Source of the DNA: Tubulanus polymorphus
Lineage: Eukaryota > Nemertea > Palaeonemertea > Tubulaniformes > Tubulanidae
Length of the DNA: 64,000 bases
Reading direction: 5' to 3'
Assembly (NCBI RefSeq): GCF_964204645.1
Contig: NC_134027.1
Span: 4,886,485-4,950,484 of the forward strand
Shown: positions 5,834-61,746 of the stretch, piece by piece
Layout of the letters: each line of letters starts with the position of its first letter
Numbering within the stretch: the stretch's first letter is position 1
Program-made: the position numbers and the translations under genes
Notes under the pieces: generated by a model
Told to the model about the DNA's origin: nothing
The model's database searches: none
The model's input: the letters and a program-made list of their open reading frames with translations, nothing else

Positions 5834-8495
5834 CTAAAAGTCGGACATCATTTCATCTTCTAGACCGCATAATAATTCTGCAATAGCTGAAATATGGAAG
5901 AATAAAACATACAAAACAGAACATTTTTAAGGTGACGTTTTACATTGAAATTGCTAAATCTACCAAAATACATACCTGTATCTGAATATAATGGATCAAC
6001 TGTTACTGATGCGGACTGTTGAGTTGTGTCAACAGCAGCACGAGTTGCAGTATTAGTGTTGCGAACTTTATCCGTATCTATGGTCAAGAAGTCACCAGAT
6101 TTTCTGAAAGCTTGTGATGTGTTGTTTTTGGTCGCACAGTATGGATTTTGAGAAATATTTGACGCATGACTAGAATTTTGATTAGTGCTTGCTGATTTTG
6201 CGATATTCCTATCGACAAACGGTTTTTTTGTTTGTTTTATCGATGATGACGAATTAAAACTCATAGAAGATGATGTTGTTTTATCGGTTTGATTGCGGTT
6301 TCTGGGTATATTAAACTGTCGAGAGGGGTTTGTGAGAGGAGATGAAAATAATGAATTAGGTCTACTGGATATCGCCGGCGATACTAGTATCGGAGAGGAC
6401 GTTTTTTCTTCAGAAATCTTCATCCAAAATTGTTCGTTTCTAGTATTGACTTGTTCTAGTAGACTACGTATTGACTGGGTATCCTTACAGTAAACTTGCC
6501 CATCTCTTTTATTGTAGATATACACGATATTGTTGAGAGTTATGTTTAGGTAATGTTTGCGCAACGTTGGACTAAAAACACCAATCTGAAATGATAACAT
6601 TTATCAATTGTCAGCATGTATAGATTTGTCAGGAAACTGTATTTTTATGGATTATCTTTCTCGTTTACCTCGCCTAGAACCAGGGCTGATCCGGGTAGAA
6701 GTTCCATCTGGAGTTCTTTTACAACTTGTCTATGTAATGTTGCTTTGATATCGCCTCATGTCAAAAGAAAAACGTAGAACCATTAAAATACTGTAGAGAT
6801 GACATTAACTTTATATATTACTTCACTCCTAGAATCAAGTTTAAAAGCGGTCAGTAGAAACATACCAGTAGGATCTTTAAAAATAGCACTAGCCTCTGCT
6901 CCAAATAGGTTGATACTATCCAGCAGTACACACATGAATGGAATTTTACAGTTCACCAGTTGCCTCTGGGCCGCCTACAAGAAAATACATTAAATAAATC
7001 ATTTTAAAAAAGTTAGTCGAGATAATCTTATTAAAATGAAAATCCGATGTCATTTTACTGCAGGGCCAGATTTAAATATATTTTAAGGGATGGATCAAAT
7101 ACCTTTTCAATAACTTTTGAAATGCAATGCTGCTGACTGAGCTTAAACAAGTTTATTCCAATATCAGATTTCATTGTGCCCCACGATGAATCATCAAACT
7201 GACTGATTTGTGTCGATTGACTACACAGCACCTTTAAAACAAATATTTGTATAGTTGAGAAAGAAAAAATACACAAAAGAAATAAATGCACCGGTAATTT
7301 CACTTCATAACTTCAATTCATACCTTTAATGGAGGTTCTCTGGGGATTTTTTCGAAATCAGTATTTACGGTATGATCTGCAATAGCCTGACCAGGACTCT
7401 GAAATAATCAAAGTTGAATTTGATGCACGGGGCTTTTTCACAGAACGACTTTATGTAATCATATATCACGAAAAAATATACTATACTAATAACTGCACAG
7501 AAAACAATTTTTTTTAGTTGTTATTTACCAGTTTGGGGAGAGCACCAGCAGGTCCAGGAAATTTCCGTTTTAGTCGCCCTGAACGGATGTTTGGAGTCGT
7601 TTCTTGAAGCGGATAAGAGATTACGGGGGTGGTAAGTGAGACAGACTTGCATCTAGAATCATGACTTTTCATAGATTCCAGCAAATTGGCATCTGATAAG
7701 GTTCTTGACTCAGTTGCGTTAGTATCATTATGGTTAGACGACAATTTAGTCTTATTCCTAGAAAATATGGATGAACTTTCTCTGGTTTCAGAGAATGTTT
7801 GAGTGTCTATTTTGGTAAATTCAGCAGCTGGCAATATTTGATTATCTAGGTCATCACTCTTCTCAGTTACGTCAACGCTTTTCACTACACCATTTGGTCC
7901 ACGTGAATTACAAATCGTGCTAGTCTTTAAAGCTTTGCTAGTAGCTCCAGTTACAGACGCTTTACTGTCGCGATTGAAGGACGAATCAAAGTCGGTTTCG
8001 TTGAGAATGATATCAAAGTCTGTATCCGACAAATCAAGGTCCCAGTGTATATCGCAACCCGACACAGCAGTTTTATTATTATTATTCCTATTGGTGCTGA
8101 TTTCCACGGACAATTTTTCCTGCTTTTGACGATTTTTCCTGTTAATATCGTTTTCAACGCTATGATCGCTACTTGTCGTCCTCTTTGCAGTATTGTCACT
8201 CATTTGTGTAGTCCTCGATGATTCAGAAACCGGTGTGGAACCCAACTCGAATGAGGATCGATTATTTGCATTTGTTATTGATGTTGATTTTGAAGTGCTG
8301 AAAAACTCCTGGAAACATAAAAAACAATCAATGAATCTTCAAGAGAAAACATGGCCTAACTAATTGATTCAGTCAACTGTGACAATATGCCAGTCCAACT
8401 GTAGGACTGCCAGTGCCATGTTTAAAAGCCTGTGATGTATCTACCTTCTCCAGAAAAATTAAATCATCATCATCATCATCATCAAGACTGAACAT
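5834..8495 (-). CDS. HROB: HROB (MCM8-MCM9-associated homologous recombination OB-fold protein)
   Basis: HROB (MCM8IP, human C17orf53) recruits the MCM8-MCM9 helicase in homologous recombination and crosslink repair in the nucleus. My model has eight coding exons: 8495-8445, 8308-7529, 7398-7324, 7231-7103, 6974-6866, 6754-6669, 6585-5976 and 5877-5834. All junctions are GT-AG, phases close, and the product is about 627 aa (human protein about 650). The evidence is strong in the conserved parts. The motif KRKFPGPAGALP sits before exon 4. SSWGTMKSDIG is in exon 5. The OB-fold core follows as IFKDPTGD, ATLHRQV, LLPGSALVLGE and IGVFSPTLRKHYLNIT. An acidic tail GLEDEMMSDF ends the protein, as in vertebrates. 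The N-terminus has seven Asp in a row (MFSLDDDDDDD). The middle is Ser/Asn/Thr-rich and probably disordered. The start is the ATG in the exon bearing the Asp run, because the upstream ATG at 8660 runs into a TGA in the same frame. Confidence 0.93.
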
Positions 8496-26730: not shown

Positions 26731-27690
26731 CTACGATTTTTGCCGATTTCTGCAGAAAAGTGTGTCACAGAAATAATCACGAATTTCTTGTCCAAGTAAA
26801 AGATATATATAGAAATTTATGACATAGTTTAAAGTTAAGAAATTATTGAATATATTATAAATGAAATATTGCTGGTCTCCAGGAATTGGCAAAAATGCAG
26901 TAATAGTGGTTGGAATCGTGAATAACGTAAACGCCAGCGAAACTGTCACAAGCATTATCGTTGTACGTTTTGCTTTCGTGATTTTCTTATCAGTTGAAAC
27001 TATTGAACCTTTGAATAACTGGACAATTATAACGATATTGGAAGTAATAATTAAGGTCAATGGCACCACATACACGTAGACAACGCCGAAAATATTAATG
27101 ATTATGAATTCGTTGAATGAGCGGTAGTGACATCCGAAATGTTTGGAAAAATCCATAATCGTTGGAAGAATTCCTACAACCATAGCGTTCACTACGAAAA
27201 TGACCGCTATAACACATCGTGCGAATCTGGGTGTGCATATCAAACGAGACGTGAACGGGAAGAGCACAACTGCCGCACGTTCTAGAGAAATAGCTACTAT
27301 AAACCATGAACTCGTAAAGCACGAAAGCTCCATTATATATTCGTAAATTTGACAACTTATCAACGAAATCATCAGATTTATTGGACCGACGTTTGGGTGA
27401 AATAGGACATACTGTATCACAGGCATCAGCGTGCAGTTCAGACAAAACATATAATCGCAGATAGATAAGCCGATAAGATAATTAGCATAAGATAAACTAC
27501 GAAATTTATGACTTATCATTATGAGGAAAGTAGCTGAATTTCCGAATGCTCCCAGTGAAAATACGATCAGCAAAAATACTATTGTTACCACGCGATGAAT
27601 ACCAGATTTATTTTGCACAGACATAAGTAAAATGTAACTACTGTACGCCCGACCAATCTGCATATTTGTAGAATTCTCCGTAGAATTCAT
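26731..27690 (-). CDS. Class A orphan GPCR, copy 1
   Basis: An intronless seven-transmembrane receptor of 319 aa. Two N-glycosylation sites (N2, N6) lie in a short extracellular tail. TM1 has the GN motif (N51), TM2 has the Asp (SICDY, D79), and Cys113 can pair with the Cys of ECL2 (FGCHY). The DRY motif is ERA (137-139), and the TM7 NPxxY motif is NFYIY. The third loop is short and basic (KKITKAKRTT) and the tail is short. These are features of a rhodopsin-class peptide or small-ligand receptor. The ligand cannot be told from sequence. It converges on the phosphatase gene. Against copy 2 it is nearly identical except around TM4-ECL2-TM5 (TIMDFSKHFGCHYRSFNEF) and one ECL3 residue (PGDQQ). Confidence 0.9.
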   Translation of the reverse strand: MNSTENSTNMQIGRAYSSYILLMSVQNKSGIHRVVTIVFLLIVFSLGAFGNSATFLIMISHKFRSLSYANYLIGLSICDYMFCLNCTLMPVIQYVLFHPNVGPINLMISLISCQIYEYIMELSCFTSSWFIVAISLERAAVVLFPFTSRLICTPRFARCVIAVIFVVNAMVVGILPTIMDFSKHFGCHYRSFNEFIIINIFGVVYVYVVPLTLIITSNIVIIVQLFKGSIVSTDKKITKAKRTTIMLVTVSLAFTLFTIPTTITAFLPIPGDQQYFIYNIFNNFLTLNYVINFYIYLLLGQEIRDYFCDTLFCRNRQKS

Positions 27691-29373
27691 GATTTACGAG
27701 AAACCACGAGTCAGATGATTATGAAAAATATGAAAAATGAAGGATGTCTCCTGCACTGTATATCTATTCATATTTGTTCATGTCAATCTTGTTTGATTTT
27801 ACTACGAATACATATTTGTCACATAATCAAATCAGTCGTTCAACAATCATCCGACTTATTGGTGTTGAATTGTTAATTTGTAAAACTTCGCATAGAATTG
27901 ATTCAACCAACTTAAATGTGATATTGTAAATATCATATAAAATGTGATATGATAATGTACTATAATGTAATATAATGTTACAATAATATTGTTAGATATG
28001 ATATAACAAAATCCTCTGGAATTGGTAGAATGCAGTGATATATTAGCTGGAAGTGTAGGGTTGATTTATATAGCCCCTCTTAAACTGTCCACTATTTACG
28101 TAAGCTCTCGGTAAACAGGTGATGGTCTTAGATATTCCTCAAATGTCCTAAATACACGCCAAATGATTACAGACGATATGATCATTGTCTGAAGAATCTA
28201 TTTTCAATCCCGTGAAAACCTTAAATCCTATTTATATCAATATGACATGGTTTCACTTAGATCAGCCTGCAAGAGGATTTGCAGTCATCTGTTATCGTAG
28301 ATCCAGCTACATATATACTGTACATTTCGACTTTGATATTTTTGTATAAATCATTTTTATAAAATTTGCCACTGCGATGTTGCTTTTCGGCTTCATTTCG
28401 TATATTTTCTAAAGATCAATATTGTTTTCTATTGATAAGTCTTGCTACGTACAATTTATGATGCAAATCAATGTCGAGGTGTGTGTTTTTGCTTTATGTG
28501 CTAAAATGCTGTTGATGCTTCAGAAGTATTGGCTGCATAGAAAAAGTAAAAAAGATTAACTATACATCCAATAGAATCGGCCTTTGACCAGTAGTTTTCA
28601 GACTTAAACCTGGCCGATTTATGTTAAGTTTTAAAGTAAAACGAAGCATGGTCTTAAGTTTTAGAATTTCTGCTTCCCCATATTTTGCAAGGTGTATACA
28701 TATATTACTATTTATTACGTGAAATATTAATTCGATTAAAAAGCATTAAGCAATTATATCACTTGGCTTATTCTCGATCATATTTGGAATATATTCACTT
28801 TTCCTGTCAGCTGAAAATATATATCAACGGCTACATACAAATGAATAACATTGACTGGAATGAAGCTTTGTAAAATTTCTTTTTTTGTTATATTATTTAA
28901 TGTGATTGTAAATGAAGATGTTATGTAAATATAAGATACAATAAAGATAGAAATGATACGTGTTGTGTACATTACGAATAATCGACGATTATTATTATGA
29001 TTATTATTATATACATGTAATTATGGCGAGATGTCTAAAATTAAACAGAACAAATTGCTTTCAAATTAACTCTTCGAATTTGTCTTTTCTTAATTTCCAT
29101 AAAGGAGACTTTAAATGGAGTAAGTGAGGTAACCCAAGCGAAATGAATAAAGGCGATCTAGAGGAATAGCTTTCTACGTACATGTACATGAAATCAATAG
29201 ACAAATAATAAGAAAACCAATTAAATCACAAAAAAGATTTGTATTCGAACCCAACCGTTGTGTGTACGCGCTGAGCCTGTGGGGTGGAGAAATGATGGAG
29301 TAGTAAGATGTTTGGGGGAAAATGCAGGAATTACCGACATTTCATTTTGCTGACTCGTACCAAATGTTTAGGT
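27691..29373. other. Spacer between GPCR copies 1 and 2
   Basis: Contains the upstream DNA of GPCR copy 1 and, from 28181, the second copy of the phosphatase-3'-UTR-like sequence. A 70-odd-bp stretch after ATATATTA at about 28040 (AGCTGGAAGTGTAGG onward) is absent from the matching place in unit 2. No gene is seen; repeated small frames (28685, 28778) are duplicates of noise. Confidence 0.6.
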
Positions 29374-30767
29374 CTACGATTTTTGCCGATTTCTGCAGAA
29401 AAGTGTGTCACAGAAATAATCACGAATTTCTTGTCCAAGTAAAAGATATATATAGAAATTTATGACATAGTTTAAAGTTAAGAAATTATTGAATATATTA
29501 TAAATGAAATATTGCTGGTCTGCAGGAATTGGCAAAAATGCAGTAATAGTGGTTGGAATCGTGAATAACGTAAACGCCAGCGAAACTGTCACAAGCATTA
29601 TCGTTGTACGTTTTGCTTTCGTGATTTTCTTATCAGTTGAAACTATTGAACCTTTGAATAACTGGACAATAATAACGATATTGGAAGTAATAATTAAGGT
29701 CAATGGCACCACATACACGTAGACAACGCCGAAAATCAAGAGAATTATGAATTGGTTGAATAAGCGATAGTGACATCCTAAATGTATTGAAAAATCCATC
29801 ATCGTTGGAAGAATTCCTACAACCATAACGTTCACTACGAAAATGACCGCTATAACACATCGTGCGAATCTGGGTGTGCATATCAAACGAGACGTGAACG
29901 GGAAGAGCACAACTGCCGCACGTTCTAGAGAAATAGCTACTATAAACCATGAACTCGTAAAGCACGAAAGCTCCATTATATATTCGTAAATTTGACAACT
30001 TATCAACGAAATCATCAGATTTATTGGACCGACGTTTGGGTGAAATAGGACATACTGTATCACAGGCATCAGCGTGCAGTTCAGACAAAACATATAATCG
30101 CAGATAGATAAGCCGATAAGATAATTAGCATAAGTTAAACTACGAAATTTATGACTTATCATTATGAGGAAAGTAGCTGAATTTCCGAACGCTCCCAGTG
30201 AAAATACGATCAGCAAAAATACTATTGTTACCACGCGATGAATACCAGATTTATTTTGCACAGACATAAGTAAAATGTAACTACTGTACGCCCGACCAAT
30301 CTGCACATTTGTAGAATTCTCCGTAGAATTCATGATTTACGAGAAACCACGAGTCAGATGATTATGAAAAATATGAAAAATGAAGGATGTCTCCTGCACT
30401 GTATATCTATTCATATTTGTTCATGTCAATCTTGTTTGATTTTACTACGAATACATATTTGTCACATAATCAAATCAGTCGTTCAACAATCATCCGACTT
30501 ATTGGTGTTGAATTGTTAATTTGTAAAACTTCGCATAGAATTGATTCAACCAACTTAAATGTGATATTGTAAATATCATATAAAATGTGATATGATAATG
30601 TACTATAATGTAATATAATGTTACAATAATATTGTTAGATATAATATGACAAAATCCTCTGGAATTGGTAGAATGCAGTGATATATTACTCGGTAAACAG
30701 GTGATGGTCTTAGATATTCCTCAAATGTCCAAAATACACGCCAAATGATTACAGACGATATGATCTG
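28181..30767. repeat. Tandem duplication, unit 2
   Basis: Second copy of the 2,643-bp unit, slightly shorter because of one deletion of about 70 bp near 30690. It ends at GATATGATC, after which unique sequence (TGATCGCTTCCG) resumes. Confidence 0.95.
29374..30333 (-). CDS. Class A orphan GPCR, copy 2
   Basis: 319 aa, intronless, same architecture as copy 1: ERA in place of DRY, NFYIY in place of NPxxY, two N-terminal glycosylation sites, and the conserved Cys pair. It differs from copy 1 mostly in TM4-ECL2-TM5, where it reads TMMDFSIHLGCHYRLFNQF, and at PADQQ in ECL3. At these places it agrees with the older copy 3, not with its tandem twin. The frame is intact, so it is likely functional. 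Confidence 0.9.
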   Translation of the reverse strand: MNSTENSTNVQIGRAYSSYILLMSVQNKSGIHRVVTIVFLLIVFSLGAFGNSATFLIMISHKFRSLTYANYLIGLSICDYMFCLNCTLMPVIQYVLFHPNVGPINLMISLISCQIYEYIMELSCFTSSWFIVAISLERAAVVLFPFTSRLICTPRFARCVIAVIFVVNVMVVGILPTMMDFSIHLGCHYRLFNQFIILLIFGVVYVYVVPLTLIITSNIVIIVQLFKGSIVSTDKKITKAKRTTIMLVTVSLAFTLFTIPTTITAFLPIPADQQYFIYNIFNNFLTLNYVINFYIYLLLGQEIRDYFCDTLFCRNRQKS

Positions 30768-31539: not shown

Positions 31540-32511
31540 CTACTCGTAGGCCAACGATTTTTGCCGCTTTCTGAAGAAAAGTTTGTCGCAGAAATATTCA
31601 CGAATTTCTTGACCAAGTAAAAGATATATATAGAAATTTATGACATAGTTTAACGTTAGGAAATTATTGGATATGTCATAAATGAAATATTGCTGGTCTG
31701 CAGGAATTGGCAAAAACGCAGTAATAGTGGTTGGAATCGTGAATAACGTAAACGCCAGTGAAACTGTTACAAGCATTATCGTTGTACGTTTTGCTTTCGT
31801 GATTTTCTTATCAGTTGAAACTATTGAACCTTTGAATAACTGGACAATTATAACGATATTGGAAGTAATAATTAATGTCAACGGTACAATATACACGTGG
31901 GCAACGCCGAAAATCATGAAAATTATGAATTGGTTGAATAAGCGATAGTGACATCCTAAATGCATTGAAAAATCCATCATCTTCGGAAGAATTCCTAGAA
32001 TATTAGCGTTCAGTACGAACATGACGGATATAACGCATCGCGCGAATCTGGGTGTGCATATCAAACGAGACGTGAACGGGAAGAGCACAACTGCCGCACG
32101 TTCTAGAGATATCGCTACTATTAACCATGAACTCATAAAGCTTGCAAGCTCCATTATAAATTCGTAAATTTGACAGCTTATCAACGAAATCATCAGATTT
32201 ATTGGACCGATGTTTGGATGAAATAGTACATACTGTATCACAGGCATCAGCGTGCAGTTCAGACAAAACATAAAATCACAGATAGATAAGCTGATAAGAT
32301 AATTAGCATAAGATAAACTACGAAATTTACGACTTATCATTATCAGGAAAGTAGCTGAATTTCCGAAGGCTCCCAGTGAAAATACGATCAGCAAAAATAC
32401 TATTGTGATCATGCGATGAATACCAGATTTACTTGCCACAGACATTAGTAAAATGTAACTACTGTACGCCCGACCAATCTGCACATTTGTAGAATTCTCC
32501 GTAGAATTCAT
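31540..32511 (-). CDS. Class A orphan GPCR, copy 3
   Basis: 323 aa, intronless, clearly homologous to copies 1 and 2 over its whole length but with scattered substitutions: SVASKSGIHRM near the N-terminus, an altered TM3 (MELASFMSSWLIV), and a C-terminus ending KSLAYE. The key motifs (GN, SICD, ERA, NFYIY) are the same. The flanks do not match the 2,643-bp unit, so it comes from an earlier duplication. Like the others it has no visible intron. Confidence 0.9.
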   Translation of the reverse strand: MNSTENSTNVQIGRAYSSYILLMSVASKSGIHRMITIVFLLIVFSLGAFGNSATFLIMISRKFRSLSYANYLISLSICDFMFCLNCTLMPVIQYVLFHPNIGPINLMISLISCQIYEFIMELASFMSSWLIVAISLERAAVVLFPFTSRLICTPRFARCVISVMFVLNANILGILPKMMDFSMHLGCHYRLFNQFIIFMIFGVAHVYIVPLTLIITSNIVIIVQLFKGSIVSTDKKITKAKRTTIMLVTVSLAFTLFTIPTTITAFLPIPADQQYFIYDISNNFLTLNYVINFYIYLLLGQEIREYFCDKLFFRKRQKSLAYE

Positions 32512-35500
32512 TATCTACGAGGAAGCACCCGCTGTTATGAGTATGGAAATATGGAAATGAAAAAAATCATATCTCTTACAGTTGTTATCTACTCATTTGT
32601 TCGTGTCAATCTTATTTCAATTTGATAACAATACACATATATTTGTAACCTAATGAAATCAATTTTTCGAAAGTTTCCGACGTATATTAGATTTGAAGTT
32701 GAATTGATGTCTAAAAAGAAACGTGCGTAGTATCGATTTAACCATTTCAAATATATATACAATATTGTAAAATAACACAATGGAATGATTCAGTAATATT
32801 GTTAGATATCATAAGATACATATCCGAAATAATCAATTCATCATCTCTCTATTTTGTCGTGAATAAAGTTTCTGGAAACGATTTTCATTTTGGTTTAACC
32901 TCGAATGAATGTTCTCATTACTCTAGATTGATATCCGTAGCGCCAACAGTAATTTTGACTTGTTGGTTAACTATACGTTGATGTTAAAAGAACCAACATT
33001 TTCTGCCAGGTATATCCGAAATTTGGGCTGTTGAAAATTGAATGGTTATGATTATTTATTTAACTGTTAGAAAAATATCGCTTTATAAACAGTTTACATT
33101 TCGAAATTCGCCATGACTTAGAAACGACGCACACGCCATATAATTTGAACATAACATCTACCGGAATTATTTTATAGTGTATTTCATATTTTTTGAATAA
33201 ATAAATTCTCGATTTTAAAATTCTTTTAATTTGTACATAGCTGGTTTTTATCCTATTATCTACCGGAAGTTTTAACGATCGATTGACAATGATGCCATCT
33301 ATTGGATTTTCAGTTCAACTCGTAGTGACCTCTAGTACGTATCTACCAATTACACTGCGCATTCGTAGCGTGATATTGTGGACTTTTTTTTATATGAGTT
33401 AACAACCGTTATCTTTATGTAGAATATTATGTTTCGTACAAATACATCTGATCGGGAACGGTTTAGAGTTTACTGACTAAGATAGCCATGCGCTGTTAGG
33501 TCTTTCTCGTCTCCCGTACACGATGCGGTCAGTTTTCGGTGAATCTTATGATTAGCAAGAAGAATACACTGATTTGCTTTCATTTAATACAATCTATTTC
33601 ACATTTCTGTTATTCTCTATTAATAACTGATAGATCATTCATCCTCTATACGCGCGGTAGGTCACATCAGATATTAATGAATCGATTGGGGGAAACATTA
33701 ATTCCCGGCCCGTTGGGAATTATCGAATAAGACGAATCCTCGTGTACGAGGAGATTAGCATTTCCACCTTCAAACCGATATGAAATGAAGACAGAGATTA
33801 TTATGACGGTAAAGTTTAATGCGCAGACGAATATCAATCTGACCTTTAACCCGCATCTTGTCACAGATTTCAAGAAGCCATTAGCCACGTTAATTACTCA
33901 GCTCAGTAATCCTGTTGAAGAATCAGCTATTTCAATTATGGTTTTGCAGTACATGTACCGTATCAGTTTGTCAAACAGTTCTTTCAACATACACACTTCA
34001 AAAGTCCGTTCTTTGAAATTAGTCACATACATCTCCATCGGTGCGATATTTTTCTTATCATTTTTTCAAGTGTTTCATCTATTGATATAGTTTATTCACA
34101 GAAATGTGACAACGGTTCTGATATAAGCAAACAATGATCGCATCTCAGATTTCGGGTTTTCATTCGTTCTTCGCTTATGCCGCTGGTGTGAATGAAATCG
34201 TGCGTGAAATAACAAGAAACTTTTCGGAAATGATTGAAAATTTTCAGGCGACGTTGTCTGGGAAGTGTATCGGGAACCGGCAATTTACCGTGTAAATGCG
34301 TGTCCAAGTGACGCATCAGTGGATTCGACAGTGAAGCGTTCCTCACCACAGACACATTTTAACCCGGGGCCAGATACCACGCGTCCAGTATTACACAAAT
34401 ATTCACGCAAAAAAGGTGTAATAAAAGCGCTCTATTTCATCAGAGTAAAAGTGTAGCAAACTTTCTCCAAGATAATGGCTATGGGTGATCAGGCGACAAT
34501 GTATCGGCAATAAACCACGAATAGCAGCTTACACCAGCCGATTTAGTACGCGATCCCCACATCCGGCAGAAGTTGGTCTCAGCTCATGTAACTTAATTCT
34601 AGAGGGACTAAAACGGCGCGTATCAAACATAATTCACTTCCTGTTTTGCTAAAAGCATCGAATCTGTTAATTCCCTCTCGACCACCAATGCGCTATTTAG
34701 ATGCTTAATAAAATTCTTCTTTCTCAAGTCGGGAAAATGCGATTTCCTTCCCATTTCCTGCGGATCTGTTTACCGGAAGTACTTGATCGGGCTTTTTCAT
34801 AGACAGCGATCACATGGCGAAATTGGAGGATAAAAACCAACTGTTTCCTCAGACAAATCGCCTCAATAGTAACAGAGTTCAGGGTCGAATTAACGACCAA
34901 CTCCATTAGACTATTGAAATAGCAGCCAGTTCTACAGTTGAGTAGAATAATTGTAACCAATCTGTTAGAATGACTATTCTGAAGTTTAAACATACAGTTT
35001 CCACACCAAACTCAAGGCTTCCTTTTAAATGTTTTTATTTCTTTGAAATCATAATTGACTGCGATCTTTTCAATTATTATCAAATACCATACATACATAT
35101 TTACACAATTAGACCTATTCGTCTAATAACTAATGATATATAACAGTTTGCACCTTTTCGATGAAGCACAATTAATCAATCTATTTTTTCGAAAGTTACT
35201 AACTCAACTGGGTACAACCGGTAAATTATACTAGTAACCAGAATCGTGTAGTTGCAATTCAATGCACAGAAACTTTTTATTTACAAACGACGAATAAACC
35301 AGAAAATCAAAATACACAATATTCGTAGTTTTCCACAATATAATTCCAATACGACTAAGCGGACTCTTCAAAACTAGTAAAACACTGAAATTTTAAAGGC
35401 GTTCTTTGAGCAAAAACGCTTACATTCTTAAGACTAACTTTGTGTACGTTTGATCATTTCTAAATCTACTTGGAATCTTAATTATTAGTATAATATGAAA

Positions 35501-35787: not shown

Positions 35788-36897
35788 TCATTGAACAGAA
35801 ATCGTTTTAGTCGGCGAATGCGAACTGAATCGTGGCGATGGCAAATCGTCTAAATGCATCGGTGGCATCGGTACTGGTGAGAACATTGGTCCCGGAATGT
35901 ACGTAGGGAATGGAAATGCGGGCGCCGCGGGGTAATGCGGGCTCAAGGCGAGTGAACCCCAAAAATGTAAAGGGAGAATTGGTGACCGTTGACCGAATCC
36001 AGGACTAGAAAATAGAAACGGTGGTGATAAGGACTGACATCCACTTTTGTATAGAGCGTGTCTGTGGGGAGAGGAGAATGTATACAGTCCAGGTGAAGTG
36101 AAACTCGACTCGGACGCTAATGACGGCGGAATTGGAATCGGATACGGAACGTGTCGGCGACCGTGCAGATGTGACGTCAAAACCGATGGGGGCGAAGAAA
36201 GTCCAGCACTGCCGCGGTGTGTGTTAGAATCGGTGGATGAATTTAACGGAGAAGATAAACCGTGACTACTAGTGCTACTGTTCCTTCGATGAGCGGGTTC
36301 ACTATTCGGCGAGTTATACGGCGAAAAGCGTCGAGGACTTTTGGATCTACTGCGGTCCCGCGAACTCAAAGGCGTTTGTTCAGTTTTGCGAATCGTCGGA
36401 GATCTACCACGCGGTTGGAGCTCAGGCGAATGACTTTGTTGGCGGGTAGTAGAAGGTGGGCTGGACCTAGGCGCCGATACAAATGCGGAATGAGGAGACC
36501 AATGCCCGTGACTGCGCAATTCGTTGGACATTCCGGGTGATGTCAAACCGAACGGTAGTTTGTACTGTCCTTCGTTAGCTAAGCTCTCCATTTTTACTTT
36601 GAACGGAACCTTATTCTCCGTTTTGATGACTTCGGGGAACGACACGAATTTGTACACGAATTTCTGTCCCATCACTTTTTTGATGATGTTCTTGTCGTAG
36701 TAATATCGCAACGCGCGGCTTAATTTATCGTAGTTCATATTACGTTTGTTTTTTCGCATTCCCCACAATCGCGCTACATCTTCTGCGTTGAGCAATTTAA
36801 ATTCTCCTTCGTTGTTGGTCCACTGTATGATATGTGTATATTGATTACTGAGCAATAACTCCAACAGAAACTGCCACAACGTTATATTTGATTCCAT
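35788..36897 (-). CDS. ELK: ELK-type ETS transcription factor (ternary complex factor)
   Basis: A nuclear ETS factor of the TCF group, which binds GGAA sites with SRF and is switched on by MAP kinases. From ATG 36897 it is 369 aa. The ETS domain (about 1-90) starts at the very N-terminus: [11 protein letters not shown], then [31 protein letters not shown] and [14 protein letters not shown]. That position and sequence are typical of ELK1/3/4. Two sumoylation-type sites follow (IKTE, VKME). The middle is Ser/Pro-rich with many SP sites. [10 protein letters not shown] fits a MAPK D-site, and the C-box [12 protein letters not shown] plus FPFP fits the ERK FXFP dock, as in vertebrate TCFs. A clear SRF-binding B-box is not evident. 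All of the ETS domain is in one exon. The acceptor lies just upstream of the ATG (TTACAG|GAATGG). Confidence 0.93.
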
Positions 36898-37751
36898 TCC
36901 TGTAAGACACGAAAATAAAGAACGTTTAGTTATCAACGATATTCATATATAAAGTCTATCAACGGTTGACGCACAAAAACAAATGCATTAAATAGTCCAA
37001 TTGGCAGATGCTAACAATATTGTATAGATGCGGGCACCGATCTATAATCAACTGGTTGAATATCACACCAAATAAGAAGGCACTCCGTAAAACGAATCCC
37101 AAATAGCACTTCAGCGCAGCATGTGCCGGATGAAGGCCGCATCCTTTTGTTAATTCATTTACAAAAGGACTTACTCGAATGAAACCCTTTCAACGCAAGA
37201 CCGCCGAGTGCGACATACGCGTGCTTCAATGACCAAAAAACTGTGTATATATTTTTCCTAGTTTTTGAGAGGCTAGCAGAAGCGTCTATCAAAAATGGTG
37301 AGATAGTCGTGTGTTTACTTAGATGCTCTAAAGCCCGCGTCTGCCCGCGGACAAAACAATGATATACAGCTTGCAACTTGAGATCCTTTTCAGCCCATTA
37401 GAAGCCATTTAAATGACTGCGCTGTCATTTGAACTAGTTCACACTCCTGTGATGAGAATAGGGGCAAGCCTGTTCCCAATGACCGCTGTATCAGATGTGA
37501 TTGAAGGAGCACTCTTGACAATCCTTAAATGTGCACATCTGTTATTTTTCGTAGTATAACTCTTCGTATGGTAAATAATACAACAACGAGATATTGAAAT
37601 AAAAAACAACGTGCGACAGATTAAAAAAAAAACAGTAAAAATATAGCAAAGCTAGTTTCGCTTCAAACGACATTCCACCCGAAATTATTACAGTAAATTG
37701 GTTTCAGAGTTCTATAATCAATAACAAATACAGTTAGACGATAGTAATTAC

Positions 37752-46650: not shown

Positions 46651-46887
46651 CGCTGGAAATCGCGCTAGTTTGCGTGCCCCTTTTCTTCCCAGGTGGATGG
46701 TGGTATCTCCCTCAGCCACCGTTTTTTCCACCATTGCCTTTCAATTAGTGAACAACATATTGCAAATTTGAACATTTCTACAATTCGGACAATTTTATTG
46801 GTTATAAGAATTTGAAATCGTTGAATTTGGAGGGATATAAATAACGTACTACTGACGGTCAATCAGCAACTTGAAAACGTGGTCGAA

Positions 46888-48424
46888 ATGGAATTTCAGG
46901 ATTTAGTCAATGACTTGCATTTTGATTTCGACCAGTTAACGAACAATGGATTACCGGAAGTGGACACAATAGAAGTGAAGACGGAAGGCGGGTTCGACGA
47001 TGGATGGATTTCGGCTGACTCCCTGTGTAGTCCCGGATCCTACCTGACACCTTCCCCTGCACCGTCTGGAAACGACCCAATCGACTTGACCTCACAATCG
47101 GCATCAATCTATCCTCACACGTCTACTAGCAACGAACTCGACCTGGCTTGGCTTACCCTGCCCATGAATTATCTAACAACTTCTAACAACGTAATTGATC
47201 TGACCATCGATGACCAAGACCCAGCGATGATGACCCCGGAATCGCCGTCAGCTAGCTCCGGTAAGTGTTGAATTTATCCAAGATAACCATTATGCTTTTC
47301 GAGTTCGTTATTTTGAGAGACAATGTTTGGATTCAATTCATTAAAACGAATTCATTCTAATAAAAGCTTATTGTGTTCCATATGTAATTCATTTATTCAT
47401 GGTAATCGTTATAAATGATTTTTTCTCTTGGCAATCGCTTTATGACCGATAATCATATAAATGCAAACGCTTAAGACTGCCGGCTAATGTTACTTTCAGC
47501 ATATAAGCGTGTTTCACAAAAGTGTCCACGTATTTCCATTCAATGGCAATAGCATAGAAATAAAGTTAGGCTATATAAAATGTATTTCATTCATTGTTAT
47601 ATTGATTCATGTATAGACAATCTAGGAATTTTGTCCTACATAGATAAAACTAGCAAACACCTTGAATAGCATAATATATACATATCAAAACTATAAGAAA
47701 TTAACTGACTTTAGATTGGCGTTCTAGTACATAAAAGAAGAAATAGATTTTCATGATGATCGGATGATTTATTATTCAAATCGTGGTCTAAATAACTGTC
47801 AAAATTCATGAATAATAGATGAATATATAGATAAAACAAAAACTGTGAAATATTTCTAAAGAAAAAATGAATAATTCATAATGCCCTGGAATAAAAATGA
47901 ATGAATCCGTAATGTCTACTTTTATTTATGATATATATGCTAATTCCATGTTGAACAGCCCGCATTTTAACGATATCCAATGTTTTTCCTTATGATATTA
48001 ATCAGATATCTTTTTGATTATTCTTACAGTTTTAGACACAACGAATGACAACGACATGGATTCTGACGAGTGTTACGGTATCACCGATGAGGAGTTGGTC
48101 ACGTTATCTGTACGAGAACTAAACGGGAAGTTGCGTGGTTTAAGCAAAGACAAAGTCCGAAGGCTTAAATACAAACGAAGAACATTGAAGAACCGCGGAT
48201 ACGCGCAGAGTTGCCGAACGAAGAAGAACCGCCAAAAATACGACCTCGAAAACAGGAATACCCAACTGGAAAAGGAAAATTTGATCTTGAGGCGTCATTT
48301 GCAAGTAATTATACGCGAACGCGACCAGTTTAAAAAACAAGTAGAAACTCTTCGGACGCGCAATAATTCAGTTTCAATCAGCCAGCCAAGCTCACCGGAA
48401 TCGTGTGACTTTGATAATTTGTAA
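46888..48424 (+). CDS. MAF: MAF-type bZIP transcription factor
   Basis: Two exons (46888-47260 and 48030-48424) join in phase to give 255 aa. The C-terminal half has the Maf extended homology region ([20 protein letters not shown]), the basic region with the diagnostic [14 protein letters not shown], and a leucine zipper ([19 protein letters not shown]) followed by [10 protein letters not shown]. It binds MARE elements as a dimer. The N-terminal half is acidic and Ser/Pro/Thr-rich with a sumoylation-type VKTE and the motif [13 protein letters not shown], as expected of a transactivation domain. So it is of large-Maf type, not a small Maf. It is shorter than vertebrate large Mafs and lacks their His and Gly runs. 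The start ATG has a good context (GAAATGG). The intron is 769 bp, and in vertebrates the comparable single-exon genes lack one here. Confidence 0.93.
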
Positions 48425-53517: not shown

Positions 53518-55331
53518 ATATGTACCGAGGCGATTTGTAAAACTCGAATTCTCCTGAAAATCGGTTGATTTCGCTTTGATATTTAAGATCACGAACAAAA
53601 TAATGGATCTAAACGTTTAATCGCCGTAGGCAGAATTTCATTGATCGATACATCCTTATATCAGCGCAGCGTGCCGACCGTGGAACATATGTGACTGAAT
53701 ATTCAATTACAATAGCCTGAAAATACTATGGCTGTTGTAGACAGGTGCTCTGCGACTGAATCCGCACTGTCTATTGGACGTCATCCTATTTCAATTTCAT
53801 TTAGAAAATTAATCAAGATCATCGTTTTGAAAATAAAATGCATTACGCCGGTATTGCGGTATATAATCCGGTGTTTAACATATCGGATTAGAATTCATTA
53901 CAAACAAGTAATGTTTTTTGCTGAGCTGTCTTTCGGTTTCATATGTTTGACTCCATCTTGGAAACTCTGTGCAGGATACATTTCCAACAAAAATGAAGCT
54001 TTCATATCAAACAATTTGATTGACCAATAACCAACTAAAACTTGTCGCATTTTTCGATATCCACGTTAGCCTGAAACCATCTTTACCAAGATGCCTGTAG
54101 GCACTAGAAGTTTCTTCGTTCTAGGTTTCAGATATCCAATTAACGAGCACCATTTGTGCATATACGTCATGGTATACGCCATATAAAGTAAAATCTAGCT
54201 ACAAATTCTGCCTTCGGGCATTTTCCGTAACTTCTGCATGCAAATTCTTCTTTGTAATGACAGAAATCGATGCACTACGCTTTTCAAAACGCTAGTTATT
54301 TTACAGTAAGTTACTGTTTAATTTGTAGAATATACCCGATGCCCGAGGCAATGTGCAGTCGACGAAACCGAAGAATCAAACATATATATCTTCTTTTGAA
54401 AAAAATTGGTCCATACTTTATATTCGGATTTGAATGAACAAAAGAAATATTCCAAGCTGTGTCACCTTGTTGCAGCGATTCTCGGGATACCGGAATTGAG
54501 CTCGCCCCGATTTGCCAATTTTCATTGGTCCCACAATCTGACTGGTGTTACTGGTATCTCCGAGTACGATTGCCATAATTGGAGCAAAATTATAGCAAAT
54601 CTATATACTATATATCATATAGAGAAATTGGGTAAAATTGGACAGGTGGGCTGGCACAATTATGCATTACATGTGTATATTGATAAATCTATTGGCAAAC
54701 CCGGGTGTGTAAATATAAATGGATAACGGCAAATTTCATATTTTAGACAGCATAACAAAACAAATACGGTTGAAGTAAATTGTACTGTTTAATGACAGCT
54801 GCGTTTCAGCTTTGCTTCGCTCTACAGGTGATTATCAACCACCGATTGGATAAGATTGCACATCCAGCTGGGTAGTCAGTATACAATAATCGATGATTCA
54901 AATAAACTCGTATATAAATATAACTACCCTACAGTTGTCAGAATGTAAAAATGCCTATCAGAAACTTTATAATGGATACGCAAAATTAAGAACAAAGGAA
55001 TTAGAAGTTGAAAATTCATGATTTTTCCAAAGGAGAGCTATGGCCCTCTTGCGGATGGTTTCAATAACATAAATCCGCTATGTTTATTAGTATCAGATTT
55101 AACCACCATTGGCTTGCGGCAGCACTTTACGGTTTACTTGGTGCAAAACTGTTGCCGTGTTTTTCATCAACCGTAGTTACGATTATCACACTGTCCAATG
55201 AAACAGTACACTGGTTACCATAGCATTGCAACCGATCACTCTTCACAGTTTTGAATCTTAATCCGTGGATCGTGTGAAAAATTTATCGCTAATTTCTTTA
55301 AATCAATCAAGAGAAAATTGAAGTTCAAATC

Positions 55332-58300
55332 ATGACGTCTGAATCTGATTCCGACGAGTCTGCGTTTAGTGAGATCTCGGAAGAATATGGACTTAAGGAT
55401 CCTTTTACATCATTATTCTTTGGTCCAGAAACGCCAGGAACAAGTTCAGCATTAAACAGAGTCTTCCAGGTTGCGCCGTCGCAGTATGGTTTTCACAGAG
55501 CATGTAAAACAAAAGTAACAAATTGTCGACAGGTTCAAATAATAGACGTACGGCAGCTGTTTACAAAAATGGTCAAGTCTGGCGCCCAGTACATCCCTGA
55601 AATAATTTTGAATGAAAAAGAAAGAAGTGAATATGAATTCGTTAATATTGACCATTTCGGAGATAAGGTATATTCACCGTCTTAGTTCAATTTCTACTCG
55701 AATCTGAATTTGTAGGACCTAGGGTAAGGTTCTAAATGGCAAGAGACTGTTGGTATTAGCGTTGGCTATAAATAGATATCTTGTATTACATCTAATACAA
55801 CGAATAATTTACTATTGCTAAAATTTGCTTTAAATTTAAGGATAAGATCACCATGTTACACCTCTTCACTGCTCGTGGAGATGCTTTGATGTTGCTCAAA
55901 TTGATAGATTCAGGGGCAAATGTGAACCATCAGCAAACGGTAGGCATCGGCAAACAGTTTCTTCATCCTCTTTTGGTTAACACGTATCTAAATGTGCATA
56001 GCTTATACTTCCATTTCATTGGACTTCTACTACTCTTGTTTCAGAATGGAAATACAGCTCTGATGGAAGCTACTGCTAATGGACAATATGAATGCATGAA
56101 ACGACTGATAGCCGGAGGAGCTAAAGTCAATATACAAAACAAGGTAGAATAGATATCCGAAAAACCATTAATTGGCCTTCTTTTTAGGCCTTCGTATGAT
56201 AGAAAAAAACTAATTATTTTCAAACGTTCTCAACGACTTTGATTGATGATAGATGGAGTTGATTTATTACGCATCTGACTATTATTTCTATTAATAATTT
56301 GAAAATCCTAATATTTTGAATCGCGTAAGTTCTGTATCAGAATTTTTCTGAAGCTGAAACGGTTAAGTTTGAATCGTTATCCTCATTGAAATTTGAGGAC
56401 TCCACGTTTTATTTCTTTAATATCTAGACTGGCCACACGGCCATAATGATCGCTGCTAATAACGGAGACTTCAAGGCTATAAAAATATTAACGGCGCAGA
56501 GGGTTTTGAACATAAACTTACAAACAAAGGCGAGTATGAATTCATATATTGCATTTGATATTTCGAAGTTCGACGTAATGAATGCTTTATCATCAAGGGA
56601 GGAGGTTACATTAAACTGCATCATTTAAATTTCTAGATGGGTAACACCGCTTTGGTTTTTGCTGCTGTTGAACAGCACGAGGACGTTATACGTTTTTTGT
56701 TAATGAAATGTGGAGCCGATATCTTTGCAAGACGAAACGTGAGTTACTGTAATCATGCAGACCACTGAATAATGGTGAAAATTGTAAAAAAGCGTTTTCA
56801 AGCGTTTTGCGCGATTGAATTGTTTTTACTCACACGAACGTTTTTTGTTTTGTATTGGTTAGCTGCCTTTGACAGCCTACTGTATAAGCTCTTTCCAAGA
56901 AGATGACAAGTGTTGTAGAATTCTTGCTGATCGACTCATGAAGCTTAATCTTGTTGGCGCTTTCATAAAGGTAGATTTGACACGTCAGCATCCAGTTGCA
57001 TAATCAAGGCTTAGACTAGTTTAAGACCACCTAGTTCTATGTCCAATCTAACAACTTAAGATCAATCTTAAGATTTAAGACAATTTTTAGCTTAAGTCAT
57101 ATCTGTGCAAATGGACTCTCAAGATCCAAACTACATAAGTTTGATATATTGTTAGTTGTTGTATTTTGGTGATTTTAGAATCGTCTGCGTATCCTTGGAC
57201 GAAACAAAAACGATGGAGTGTTGCTGCTTATGACGACGTTTTCGTTGTGTCCGTTTCTGGTGCTGGTCCAGAAGATACCCGAAAAACTCCGCATGAAATC
57301 TTACGAGCGCCTGATGATGCACCGTTCCCATGATAACCACAGCAAACATTGCCGTACGATGCATCGCCTGTTACCATGGTCACTGATAGTTATGGGTCAT
57401 CCGATTCGACTGATGAAACTAAACAAGACTCAAATAACAACGATATTTCAAGATTTTCACGAAACTGGAGCTAGTGACATTTTTCTTCAGTGCGCCACGA
57501 CCTACGGTAACGATGACGTCACTTTTTACCATTTGCTGGTAATCATCGGCTTTTTCTGCTCTGTTGAAGAAGGCCGGAAGTGGCTTGAAGTGCACGCTCG
57601 TCTGTTTTCGCGGTGTGCAAAGATCCTTGATAAAAAAGGAAAGTTCATTGGTGACCAAAAGAACAGTCTTACAGATCAAGCACCGAGTGATTGTGTGCTT
57701 GCGTTGACATCAGAAGATTATCTTGAAGTCCGTGTACAAAACGCCGATGTTATCTTGAACTTGGTTTTACATCGAGTCGCTGACATGAACATGAGAGAAC
57801 TCATTGCCGCCGAGAGCGCAGAAAAGGAAAGAGCAGAGAAAAGAAGGCAAATGAGAAGGAAGAAGAGACAAGCAGGAAAATGCGAGCAATTGAAGGGCAA
57901 AAATACTGTAGTGGCACCAGCGATAAACGACGCAGATGATGAAAGCAGTGATGAATCGGACCAGGATTTGAGGAGAAATGTACCACTATATTCTGCCACG
58001 AAGATGATGGTATCGACATCACCCATGCCAAATATGGCTTTGACAACCATTAAACGAGAACCAAGAAATAACAAACAGCGTTTGAAATGCGCAATGAAAG
58101 AACATGAAAAAGTGACACCACAATTACAGTACGACACACGGAAGTCCATGAAATATCAAGAGGAACCAAAATTTAGAAATCCACCACAATCAGATCACAA
58201 CGACGCTAAACGACGGCAAACAAACAAGCCTTTAAGACCGAAGTCGAAATCCCAACCATCGACTCCTGTAAAGTCCACGAAGCCTCCATCACCACTTACG

Positions 58301-61300
58301 ACAACGTATGGTACACCGCCAAGGACACAAACCGTTCGGAAGGAGCCGAGAAAAGAGCCGATACCGTTTACTGAATTTATGACAATGGCTTTCAAAAATC
58401 TTAAAATAGAAGATTGCGGTAAGTTAACCGGCGCCTGGAAAGAGAAAGTTACAAAAGGAAAAGATACAACGGCAAAAGATGAACAAGTACAGCGTGGTAG
58501 CTTAGATAAAGAATTGATGAAAAATCGCCCGGAGACACAAGACCCTGCTCGACTCGGTTCTAAATGTCGACGTAAACACTTCAATCCTGCGACTGAAGAT
58601 AAGACAACAAAAGCTGCAGAACCACCAGCTCTACTTACACCAACACCAAAGACTACCATCAAAAAAGAAATTGTTACTCCGAAAGTCGTCCGAAAACCGG
58701 ATATAAAAATAGCTCTAGCACCTTCCAAAAAAGTTCGAATGGAGCCTTACGTGATGCCTGCGCATATAATAAGGAAGGCCGAAAAAAAGGTTGTCGATAG
58801 ATGCGCGCATAAAGAGAAAGTAACGGTTAATGTTATTGAAGAGAATAAACTGGATGAAGAATTTGATACTATGCGTATGACTGCTGCTATCGATAACCTG
58901 TTCGATTTTCCGTCTGACGATGACGACAAAGACGCAAAAGACGATGACATCGATCAGTTTCCCGACCTGGAAGAGTGGGACGAGTTCATTCCTCCTAAAG
59001 AACAATCACGACAAGAGACTAGAGAATCATCGAGACATGAAAATAAGAGTGCCACAGTGCTTAAGAAAACGAGTAGCGCATACTTATCTACTGTAGAATA
59101 TCAGAGCGCTAGCGAGGATGCCGACGGTCGGGGTTCACTTTCGTCTTCACTCTCCAGTGAAAATAACGATTACGTGAGCTGTTCATCATCATCCGATCAA
59201 AACGATACAAAAAGCAATGACGATAACAAAGAAGTAGTTGACACTAATCCCGAACAAGAATCTAGCAGCATCACTGATCCGCATTCACAAGACACAGATG
59301 GGATGTCCAAAGTGGAAATGGACAAGTCCAAAGAAGTTACTGTGGAGGTTATAAGATCAGAAGAGAAAAGAGAACAAGAGGATATAAGTCCAAAATCATC
59401 GAGCGCATCAATTGATGTCAAATGCATATCACCCGCAGTCCACGGTGTTTCTGAAATAACGTCACTCGAAGAAACGACACAAATAAAACAACTCATTCCT
59501 GAGCAAAAACCATCTGCTCCGTGTCAGCCAGTTACAGCGTTCTTTCCCAGTATGCCAAAAGGGAACTTATTCGACGACTTGCAGCACATATTTCACGGGT
59601 CTACAAAAACGTTCGTGGCGAATGAAGACGGTGCCGTCGATGTGACCGATGGGTATCCACGTGATAACGTTGACCATGCTGGCGATCACGAAATCTACCG
59701 GAACCCCTTCCAGGAGTTATGGCATGCACCAGCACCCCCACAACCTGTGCGTATCAACTGGACGTCATGTAGCAATCGATGGAATAAACTTTTTGAGAAA
59801 TTGGTAAAGGCGGATACCGTGTGTCGAACAAAAGTCTACCAGTATTACATGTACTGTGACAATCCGGAGATGGTAATCGCGCAAGGGTAAGTGCTTGGTG
59901 GTAGATGAATAATGAGTTATTCCGCTGCGGTTCTTTGTCACTGATAAAGGATATTACATCGCAGTTATACTGGAAAAGTCTTTTTTTTTAACCTCCAGTG
60001 CATTTGGTAATATCATCAGTGTAGGGCTACACGAAGACGGTCGCGAAGTCAGCGTCAAACGAATGCTCAAACTCAACACCGCCACAATAAGGGACAGAGC
60101 TATCGATTTAAAACTTCGCAATTTAGAGACCCCTTATTTACTCGCATATCTGGTATACCTTTAAAGCGAACTTAAAAATATCCTGCCATGTTCACTCTTT
60201 AATTCCACCTTTAATGCATTTAGGATTACGTGGAAGATCAGCATTTCGGATATTTGATAACGGATTTGACTGAGATGTCGCTCGACGAATACATACCAAA
60301 CGAATTGATTTATCGCCCAACTACGTGGCAAAGAAAAGCTCGAAATCTGTGCCTACAAGTGTTACTAGGACTGAGAGTTCTACACAATGAACATATCCTA
60401 CATGGAAATCTGAAGGTAAGCTCGTTGGAGTGCGTACAGTTGGGAAATGATTCCTGGCGAATATTATGGCACAAATAACACCACAATCTCAAATTACCGA
60501 CACTAATATTCGTTTCTATAGCCAAGCAACGTGCTAATAACGAAAGAAGGAAACTTGAAATTAGCGGATTATGGAATATTCGAAGGAGATAGCGTTACGT
60601 CTGCACAAACTCCGGTCAATAGAACAGGACTGTGCTGGAAGCCTACCGAATGTTTACTGCCCGGAGAAAGTCGAATGCCTTACACCGAAGCGTCCGATAT
60701 ACAAGTATATTTTTTTTTCTTTTCGGCATCGTGCTTTTTCCCATACAGTTCGTTAATGTATAAGTTTGATTAAGCACTGTTTCATTATTTTGAGATAGGT
60801 TTCCGGTATGTTGTTTCATTATATGATTACTGGAGGAAGCCATCCTTTCGGCAATGATCCCGCCATGAGTGAGCTTCTCGTCAGACAATGCCGCCCGAAA
60901 CTTCACCCGAACCTCGACGACATAACCATGCACATCATGGGCTGTATGTTACATCCAGAACCGAATAAGAGGCGATCGGTACAAGTCTGTACTGAGTATG
61001 TATCATTTGAAAAGGTTAAATCCGCACTTCATGTTCACCATTCAAAATCTTTGAAATTTCCATTACAGTCACCCGTTTTTCTGGTCGCAGCAAGATCAAT
61101 TTAACTATATCCTGGCAGTTGGAGCACAGCCGGAAGTGAGATCTGCACTATTTTGCGAGGTGACCCGTCTTATGAACAGCGCAATCTCGTGGACCGGCTA
61201 CATTAACTGGGTCTGTAACAATAATACTTGCTTGTGTGAAATGTCTACGTAACACGCCTAGTTTGCATCGTAATAATCACGTGTTTACTATTTGCAAATG

Positions 61301-61746
61301 TAGACTTGTAGAATCGATCCTGGACTGTTAGAATATGTTTCACGGGGACAAAAACGCATCATCGTGTACCAAGACTACTTCTGCGATATAATCAGCTTCT
61401 TGTATGACTTGGACAAAGAATACAAAGTTATGTAAGTAATGAAGATGTGAATGGAGAATGTCGAGTATATGATCGTCGATAATACGACAATTGCATTGAT
61501 CTGTGCATACCACACTGAGTTAATAGGGTTCGCGGGGAAAGGATGCTTAAATCTGAATTGTCTAAAAACGATTGAAAATTCAGGCCTCAAGACTTGAAGA
61601 GAACGATCCCACAACCGAGCGAATACTACCGAGTTATGTTCCCGCGTATATTCCTACCCACTTTCGACATCATATCAAAGAGCACATGGAGTAAACGAAA
61701 GAACTTGTTAGCATTTTACGAAATGTCGACACCGACGATGATTTAG
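55332..61746 (+). CDS. Ankyrin-pseudokinase-KEN protein (RNase L/IRE1-like architecture, probably catalytically dead)
   Basis: My model has 15 exons, phases closing, about 1570 aa: 55332-55667, 55841-55939, 56045-56143, 56428-56529, 56637-56738, 56863-56970, 57179-59886, 59999-60152, 60224-60415, 60522-60704, 60799-60995, 61069-61210, 61304-61431, 61584-61746 and possibly more upstream. Four to five ankyrin repeats (about 115-260) are coded on 33-34-residue exons. Then comes about 900 residues on one large exon: a helical-looking part, a basic stretch (KRRQMRRKKRQ), and charged Ser-rich sequence with DDDDKDAKDDD. The kinase-like domain starts near 1180 with GAFGN and REVSVKRML (Lys1205 kept, as in IRE1), but the HRD motif is HGNLKPSN (Asn1298) and DFG is DYG (1316-1318). 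SHPFG follows, as in IRE1. The KEN-like part opens DHPFFW (1427-1432) and ends near QPSEYYRVMFP. Expected catalytic Arg/His are Tyr1508 and Glu1513. Family function is RNA cleavage in the unfolded-protein or antiviral response. Here a regulatory or scaffold role is more likely. Confidence 0.85.
56530..56636 (+). other. Probable GC-AG intron in the ankyrin-KEN gene
   Basis: The only in-frame way to join ankyrin exons 56428-56529 and 56637-56738 uses the donor AAG|GCGAGT with acceptor TTCTAG. The nearby GT alternative (GCGA|GTATGA) gives an immediate stop in the next exon. The flanks match the strict consensus seen at GC donors. Confidence 0.7.
57016..57130. repeat. Inverted-repeat element in an intron of the ankyrin-KEN gene
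   Basis: The intron 56971-57178 has GCTTAGACTAG near its left and AGCTTAAGTC near its right, plus a perfect inner palindrome CTTAAGATCAATCTTAAG. This looks like a small folded non-autonomous element or its relic. Confidence 0.4.

Follow-up and report, generated by a model that had tools for sequence, protein, structure and literature searches.

An intact spiralian gene encoding a probably non-catalytic RNase L-like protein with ankyrin, pseudokinase and KEN domains

A single gene on the forward strand of the window (the whole 64,000-nucleotide stretch of DNA analyzed here; gene at 55332-61746) encodes a protein of 1570 residues that carries ankyrin repeats, a kinase domain of the IRE1/RNase L type and a C-terminal KEN domain. 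The explanation that we favor, with somewhat better than even confidence, is an intact spiralian gene, single-copy within the searches made, whose product has the order ankyrin, disordered linker, pseudokinase and pseudo-KEN, has an ancestor in common with RNase L and very likely does not cut RNA. The protein thus probably serves as an RNase L-like scaffold or sensor without catalytic activity; on present evidence it appears RNase L-like by descent and not RNase L by function.

The gene model was built by joining 14 exons at consensus splice sites in the DNA sequence (Table 1). All frames are kept from the ATG to the stop codon, with no frameshifts; 12 introns are of the GT-AG type and one (intron 4) is GC-AG, with lengths of 71-284 bases. 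A pseudogene was considered and rejected, as all 14 exons are open and the junctions are good. The initial annotation had noted the motifs REVSVKRML, SHPFG, DHPFFW and PSEYYRVMFP, and all four lie in frame in this one model (exons 8, 11, 12 and 14). The domain order that it had read from them is borne out by Pfam, which finds Ank_2 (2.5e-25), Pkinase (5.2e-27) and Ribonuc_2-5A (PF06479) in the same gene. The last of these is borderline: the KEN region alone scores 24.5 bits (3.2e-5), above the curated cut-off of 23.3, and within a longer stretch it falls to 21.4 bits (2.9e-4), below that cut-off.

Four ankyrin repeats pass Pfam and a fifth is degenerate; each occupies its own phase-0 exon. They are followed by a unique region and a linker of about 600 residues, such that approximately 890 residues separate the repeats from the kinase, a distance on which the initial annotation had not remarked. 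The linker (residues ~516-1140) is rich in Lys, Ser, Asp, Glu, Pro and Thr and is read as disordered. Over residues 1-516, Pfam detected nothing besides the ankyrin repeats. For the first ~220 residues encoded by exon 7, there was no Pfam match and no further copy was found in the genome; an AF2 model of the contiguous start of this exon reached a mean pLDDT of 42 and was unusable for fold search. The 2.7-kb exon 7 is linked to the kinase by its junction with exon 8, which falls within the glycine-rich loop (AQG/AFGN) in phase 2.

Table 1. Exons and poly(A) signal of the RNase L-like gene (positions in the window).
Feature	Position	Strand	Content	Basis
Exon 1	55332..55667	+	Start codon; N-terminal region, aa 1-112, no known domains	Gene model; stop codon just 5' of ATG, ORF opens at 55302
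Exon 2	55841..55939	+	Ankyrin repeat 1, aa 113-145	Gene model, Pfam; phase-0 exon
Exon 3	56045..56143	+	Ankyrin repeat 2, aa 146-178	Gene model, Pfam
Exon 4	56428..56529	+	Ankyrin repeat 3, aa 179-212; GC donor on following intron	Gene model, Pfam
Exon 5	56637..56738	+	Ankyrin repeat 4, aa 213-246	Gene model, Pfam
Exon 6	56863..56970	+	Degenerate ankyrin-like repeat 5, aa 247-282	Position and length; weak repeat
Exon 7	57179..59886	+	Unique region, aa 283 to ~500; basic helix/RRKKR (508); linker ~516-1140; start of kinase N-lobe (to aa 1184)	Gene model
Exon 8	59999..60152	+	Kinase N-lobe: GAFGN loop, VSVK (Lys1205 kept), alpha-C Glu replaced by Ala1219	Gene model, Pfam, alignment
Exon 9	60224..60415	+	Kinase, ending in HGNLK (HRD Asp replaced by Asn1298)	Gene model, alignment
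Exon 10	60522..60704	+	Kinase, DYG (Asp1316 kept); 3' boundary SDIQ/VSG, phase 0 as in human RNASEL	Gene model, intron comparison
Exon 11	60799..60995	+	Kinase C-lobe, SHPFG	Gene model, Pfam
Exon 12	61069..61210	+	DHPFFW; first part of KEN; Trp1474 (RNase L W632) kept	Gene model, alignment
Exon 13	61304..61431	+	KEN core, active site lost: D1502 kept; Y1508/D1509/E1513 replace R667/N668/H672	Gene model, alignment
Exon 14	61584..61746	+	KEN C-terminal region, PSEYYRVMFP; stop TAG	Gene model, Pfam
Poly(A) signal AATAAA	62046..62051	+	300 bases 3' of stop	Hexamer scan

The catalytic residues of the KEN domain, the loss of which had escaped the initial annotation along with that of the kinase HRD Asp, are replaced at all three aligned positions (Table 1), and the Rx4-6H motif is absent. 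According to a paper on HEPN/KEN domains, known members need both the Arg and the His for KEN activity, which is lost when these are mutated (PMC3710099). RNA cleavage by the window protein is therefore very likely absent. The IRE1 of the same genome (contig C4) keeps HRD, DFG and RNKKHH, so the loss is specific to the window gene. A retroelement-like stretch with multiple ORFs lies in an intron of this IRE1, between kinase C-lobe exons (L039, 100-4900; G000:C4:18930600-18935400). In the kinase domain of the window protein, the alignment shows that the VSVK Lys and the DYG Asp are kept, HRD has become HGN and the alpha-C Glu is an Ala; the domain would accordingly be a pseudokinase, which might still hold nucleotide.

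For 2-5A binding, the reference was RNase L with its nine ankyrin repeats and the contact set W60, K89, F126, E131 and R155. At the position of W60/F126, the repeats of the window protein carry I, N, H, N and L, i.e., no aromatics, with some uncertainty of register among repeats; the known 2-5A site is thus not conserved. According to a paper on the mouse enzyme, the 2-5A contacts of RNase L differ in part from one species to another (PMC5927464). With the KEN active site, the kinase HRD Asp and alpha-C Glu, and the 2-5A aromatics all gone, the protein is apparently not an RNase L in function. The suggestion of an antiviral RNase accordingly finds no support, as both Rx4-6H and the aromatic 2-5A contacts are missing; a stress or antiviral role of another kind may still be envisaged.

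The KEN domain resembles that of RNase L specifically. Against solved structures, its best matches were RNase L from pig (1.2e-8) and human (2.5e-8), compared to 0.004 for IRE1, and a profile comparison gave 1.1e-8 for RNase L versus 5.8e-6 for IRE1. When the HPFFW segment was left out, RNase L of pig and human still scored 19.3 and 17.6 bits, respectively, and the best of 3000 shuffles reached 9.5 bits. The corresponding scores against the host's own, human and yeast IRE1 were near noise, at 1.0, 2.3 and 7.7 bits, and were equaled by 149, 43 and 2 of 3000 shuffles, respectively. Outside its own group, each of the two KEN domains, that of the window protein and that of RNase L, finds its best match in the other. 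They also have in common a three-residue gap before the YF/YY motif, where yeast, human and the host's own IRE1 retain the residues.

The kinase domain behaves differently. Its best matches among solved structures are all IRE1 (1.6e-26). The domain scores about 70 bits with IRE1 and 10-22 bits with RNase L, which is expected if the kinase of RNase L has decayed further and is also expected under a separate origin. IRE1 is a slow-evolving relative; thus, two independent descents from it should each have stayed nearer to IRE1 than to one another. The KEN domain shows the reverse, whereas the kinase domain does not. Phylogeny was addressed with fixed-topology tests. For kinase and KEN together, the grouping of the window protein with RNase L was favored (AU 0.013-0.027 for both alternatives, whether the model was LG+G4 or C20 and whether gapped columns were kept or removed); KEN alone gave 0.02-0.06, and the kinase alone gave 0.08-0.18 and was not decisive. 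By itself, this test is weak, given the very long branches and the small number of taxa.

Further evidence comes from introns. Those of human RNASEL were placed on the alignment from its exon lengths in the literature (PMC2048516), the human RNase L sequence having been checked against the solved chain. One intron, at DLE/DLG in human RNASEL and at SDIQ/VSG in the window gene, is identical in position and phase, and three further 3' introns, near but not exact in position, have the same phases (2, 0 and 2) at distances of 9, 3 and 4 columns. Under random placement, three introns fell within 4 columns in 0.07% of trials and four within 10 columns in 0.02%, with thresholds set post hoc. Between the host's own IRE1 and the window gene, no intron is shared exactly or within 4 columns. 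The ankyrin part is another matter: its sequence shows no special likeness to the repeats of RNase L, and it is encoded at one repeat per exon versus a single exon in vertebrate RNASEL.

Taken together, the KEN similarity, the KEN gap, the intron phases and positions and the topology test favor an older ankyrin-KEN family over assembly from IRE1. Of the two origins offered earlier, a family predating vertebrate RNase L or a combination that arose again, the former is therefore preferred, without the antiviral RNase attached to it. We infer that the kinase-KEN half shares ancestry with vertebrate RNase L, as probably does the whole protein. Descent would probably be from an ankyrin-pseudokinase-KEN ancestor predating the protostome-deuterostome split; the protein type would then probably be older than the vertebrates and, in this animal, work without cutting.

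Compared to RNase L, the vertebrate 2-5A-dependent ribonuclease (PDB 4oau, 4o1o), the window protein is alike in domain order, KEN sequence and KEN gap, and its gene agrees in intron phase over the final four introns, with one of them identically placed. It is unlike RNase L in having 4-5 repeats, one per exon, instead of nine, a stretch of ~890 residues before the kinase, no R/N/H triad in KEN and no recognizable 2-5A aromatics. Its pseudokinase has also decayed differently, with HGN and DYG in place of the HQD and DFD of RNase L. With IRE1 (ERN1, including the host's own copy), it shares the kinase-KEN order and the closest kinase match; it differs in bearing ankyrin repeats instead of a lumenal and membrane part, in its lost kinase and KEN catalytic residues, in its intron positions and in a KEN domain that is hardly alike. 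A third likeness is to the inactive HEPN/KEN domains, i.e., KEN family members without Rx4-6H. The paper on these domains puts conservation of the KEN motif at 95%, mentions that solo KEN has expanded in Oikopleura and gives KEN with kinase and ankyrin as a known architecture; its accessible part does not describe an ankyrin-pseudokinase-dead KEN protein of this kind (PMC3710099).

In the host genome of 268 Mb, a single Hox cluster, compact and ordered, lies on contig C6 (G000:C6:5318000-5635000), with about ten genes on the same strand. A Lox5-like KLNGP follows one of the homeodomains, and a UbdA-like IKELN of the Lox2/Lox4 type follows two; these signatures place the host in Spiralia, and the earlier description of the genome as apparently invertebrate was right. 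No mitochondrial COX1 was found in the assembly. On contig C9, OAS1_C matches occur in tandem at 12.14-12.20 Mb and correspond to three near-identical OAS-like genes (G000:C9:12142500-12205000; L041, L042 and L043) that keep GSLGKG, ADID and HEVDLLP. As the nucleotidyltransferase aspartates are kept, the animal can probably make OAS products. A reverse-transcriptase ORF adjoins one of these genes (L043). An exon-by-exon KEN profile search of the genome found only an intact IRE1, and a protein-level search gave the window gene plus ordinary kinases and IRE1. As the profile search missed the window gene itself, its failure to show further KEN genes counts for little, and a second, active one is possible. 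No relatives were found in viral contigs.

A survey of twelve lower Metazoa, oyster, limpet and Lingula among them, reported OAS and no RNase L (PMC6307210), and the OAS/RNase L axis was reported absent from the Aplysia immunome (PMC9334734). Among open-licence papers, we found none on an invertebrate RNase L-like protein, which does not in itself prove novelty. With KEN split over exons and barely above the Pfam cut-off, the failure of the whole-genome profile search suggests why such genes may be missed. The sole RNase L-like protein found in this OAS-bearing genome by the exon-by-exon and protein-level searches looks dead as a nuclease. It thereby provides a concrete gene for testing the origin of RNase L, as well as a candidate for testing the missing reader of OAS products.

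How such a protein might act can be sketched from its parts. The ankyrin repeats would bind a partner, possibly a protein and less likely a nucleotide messenger, and the pseudokinase and KEN domains would pair up, as they do in RNase L and IRE1. The dead KEN domain could then serve as a platform for dimerization or for holding RNA; inactive HEPN domains have been proposed as RNA-binding receptors that do not cut (PMC3710099). Such a platform may scaffold or restrain a stress or antiviral response. A bolder and distinctly unlikely version holds that the RNase L architecture is bilaterian or older and that the protein is here a dead receptor, with a scaffold that resembles RNase L and does not cut as the reader of OAS products.

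Shared ancestry with RNase L has to be weighed against several other accounts. A spiralian IRE1 duplicate could have lost its lumenal and membrane parts, gained ankyrin exons and decayed, with the likeness to RNase L arising independently. We regard this as a real possibility, albeit an unlikely one: the kinase scores, the ankyrin part and a tree grouping that may come from long branches are all in keeping with it, whereas a KEN domain that is specifically RNase L-like and near noise against even the host's own IRE1, the gap common to that domain and RNase L, and the complete lack of shared intron positions with the own IRE1 speak against it. Alternatively, the locus may hold two neighboring genes: exon 6 would end one, for an ankyrin protein, and exon 7 would open the other, for a kinase-KEN protein. 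A methionine does occur about 17 codons into exon 7, and exon 6, if left unspliced, runs shortly into a stop. Nevertheless, the gap is only 208 bases, has consensus splice sites joined in phase 0 and contains neither AATAAA nor ATTAAA, and RNase L itself has the ankyrin-then-kinase-KEN order. In the hexamer scan, AATAAA was absent from all introns of the gene and, within the gene, was confined to exon 7. Two separate genes are therefore improbable, and exons 6 and 7 are predicted to join ankyrin and kinase-KEN parts in one gene.

With regard to function, the main rival to a non-cutting RNase L-like scaffold is a dominant-negative or regulatory partner of the host's own IRE1, forming a heterodimer that tunes the unfolded protein response. 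This proposal, which would fit either origin and which we consider doubtful, accords with the IRE1-like kinase domain, the catalytic deadness of the protein and the intact IRE1 in the same genome. However, the dimer surface is formed in part by KEN, a domain that in this protein lies far from its IRE1 counterpart, and no membrane anchor was recognized among Pfam domains. Highly improbable is a functional RNase L in which 2-5A from the host's OAS binds the ankyrin repeats and triggers cleavage through unusual catalytic residues. The domain order would suit it, as would the ADID and VDLLP aspartates kept in the three tandem genes on C9, but the equivalents of R667, N668 and H672 are all replaced, every repeat lacks an aromatic at the W60/F126 position, the repeats are fewer than nine and the linker is very long.

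Several other genes lie in the window. About 7 kb 5' of the RNase L-like gene is a Maf-type bZIP transcription factor (46825-48424, +; bZIP_Maf 2.4e-23), and an ETS-domain transcription factor gene occupies 35788-36942 (-; Ets 6.6e-34). A possible HROB (homologous recombination OB-fold) gene at 5860-8338 (-) matches Pfam at 1.9e-6, below the curated cut-off. Three nearly identical rhodopsin-type GPCR genes stand in tandem as single ORFs on the reverse strand (26731-27693, 29374-30336 and 31540-32514; 7tm_1 E-values of 2e-16 to 3e-18) and are a recent local expansion.
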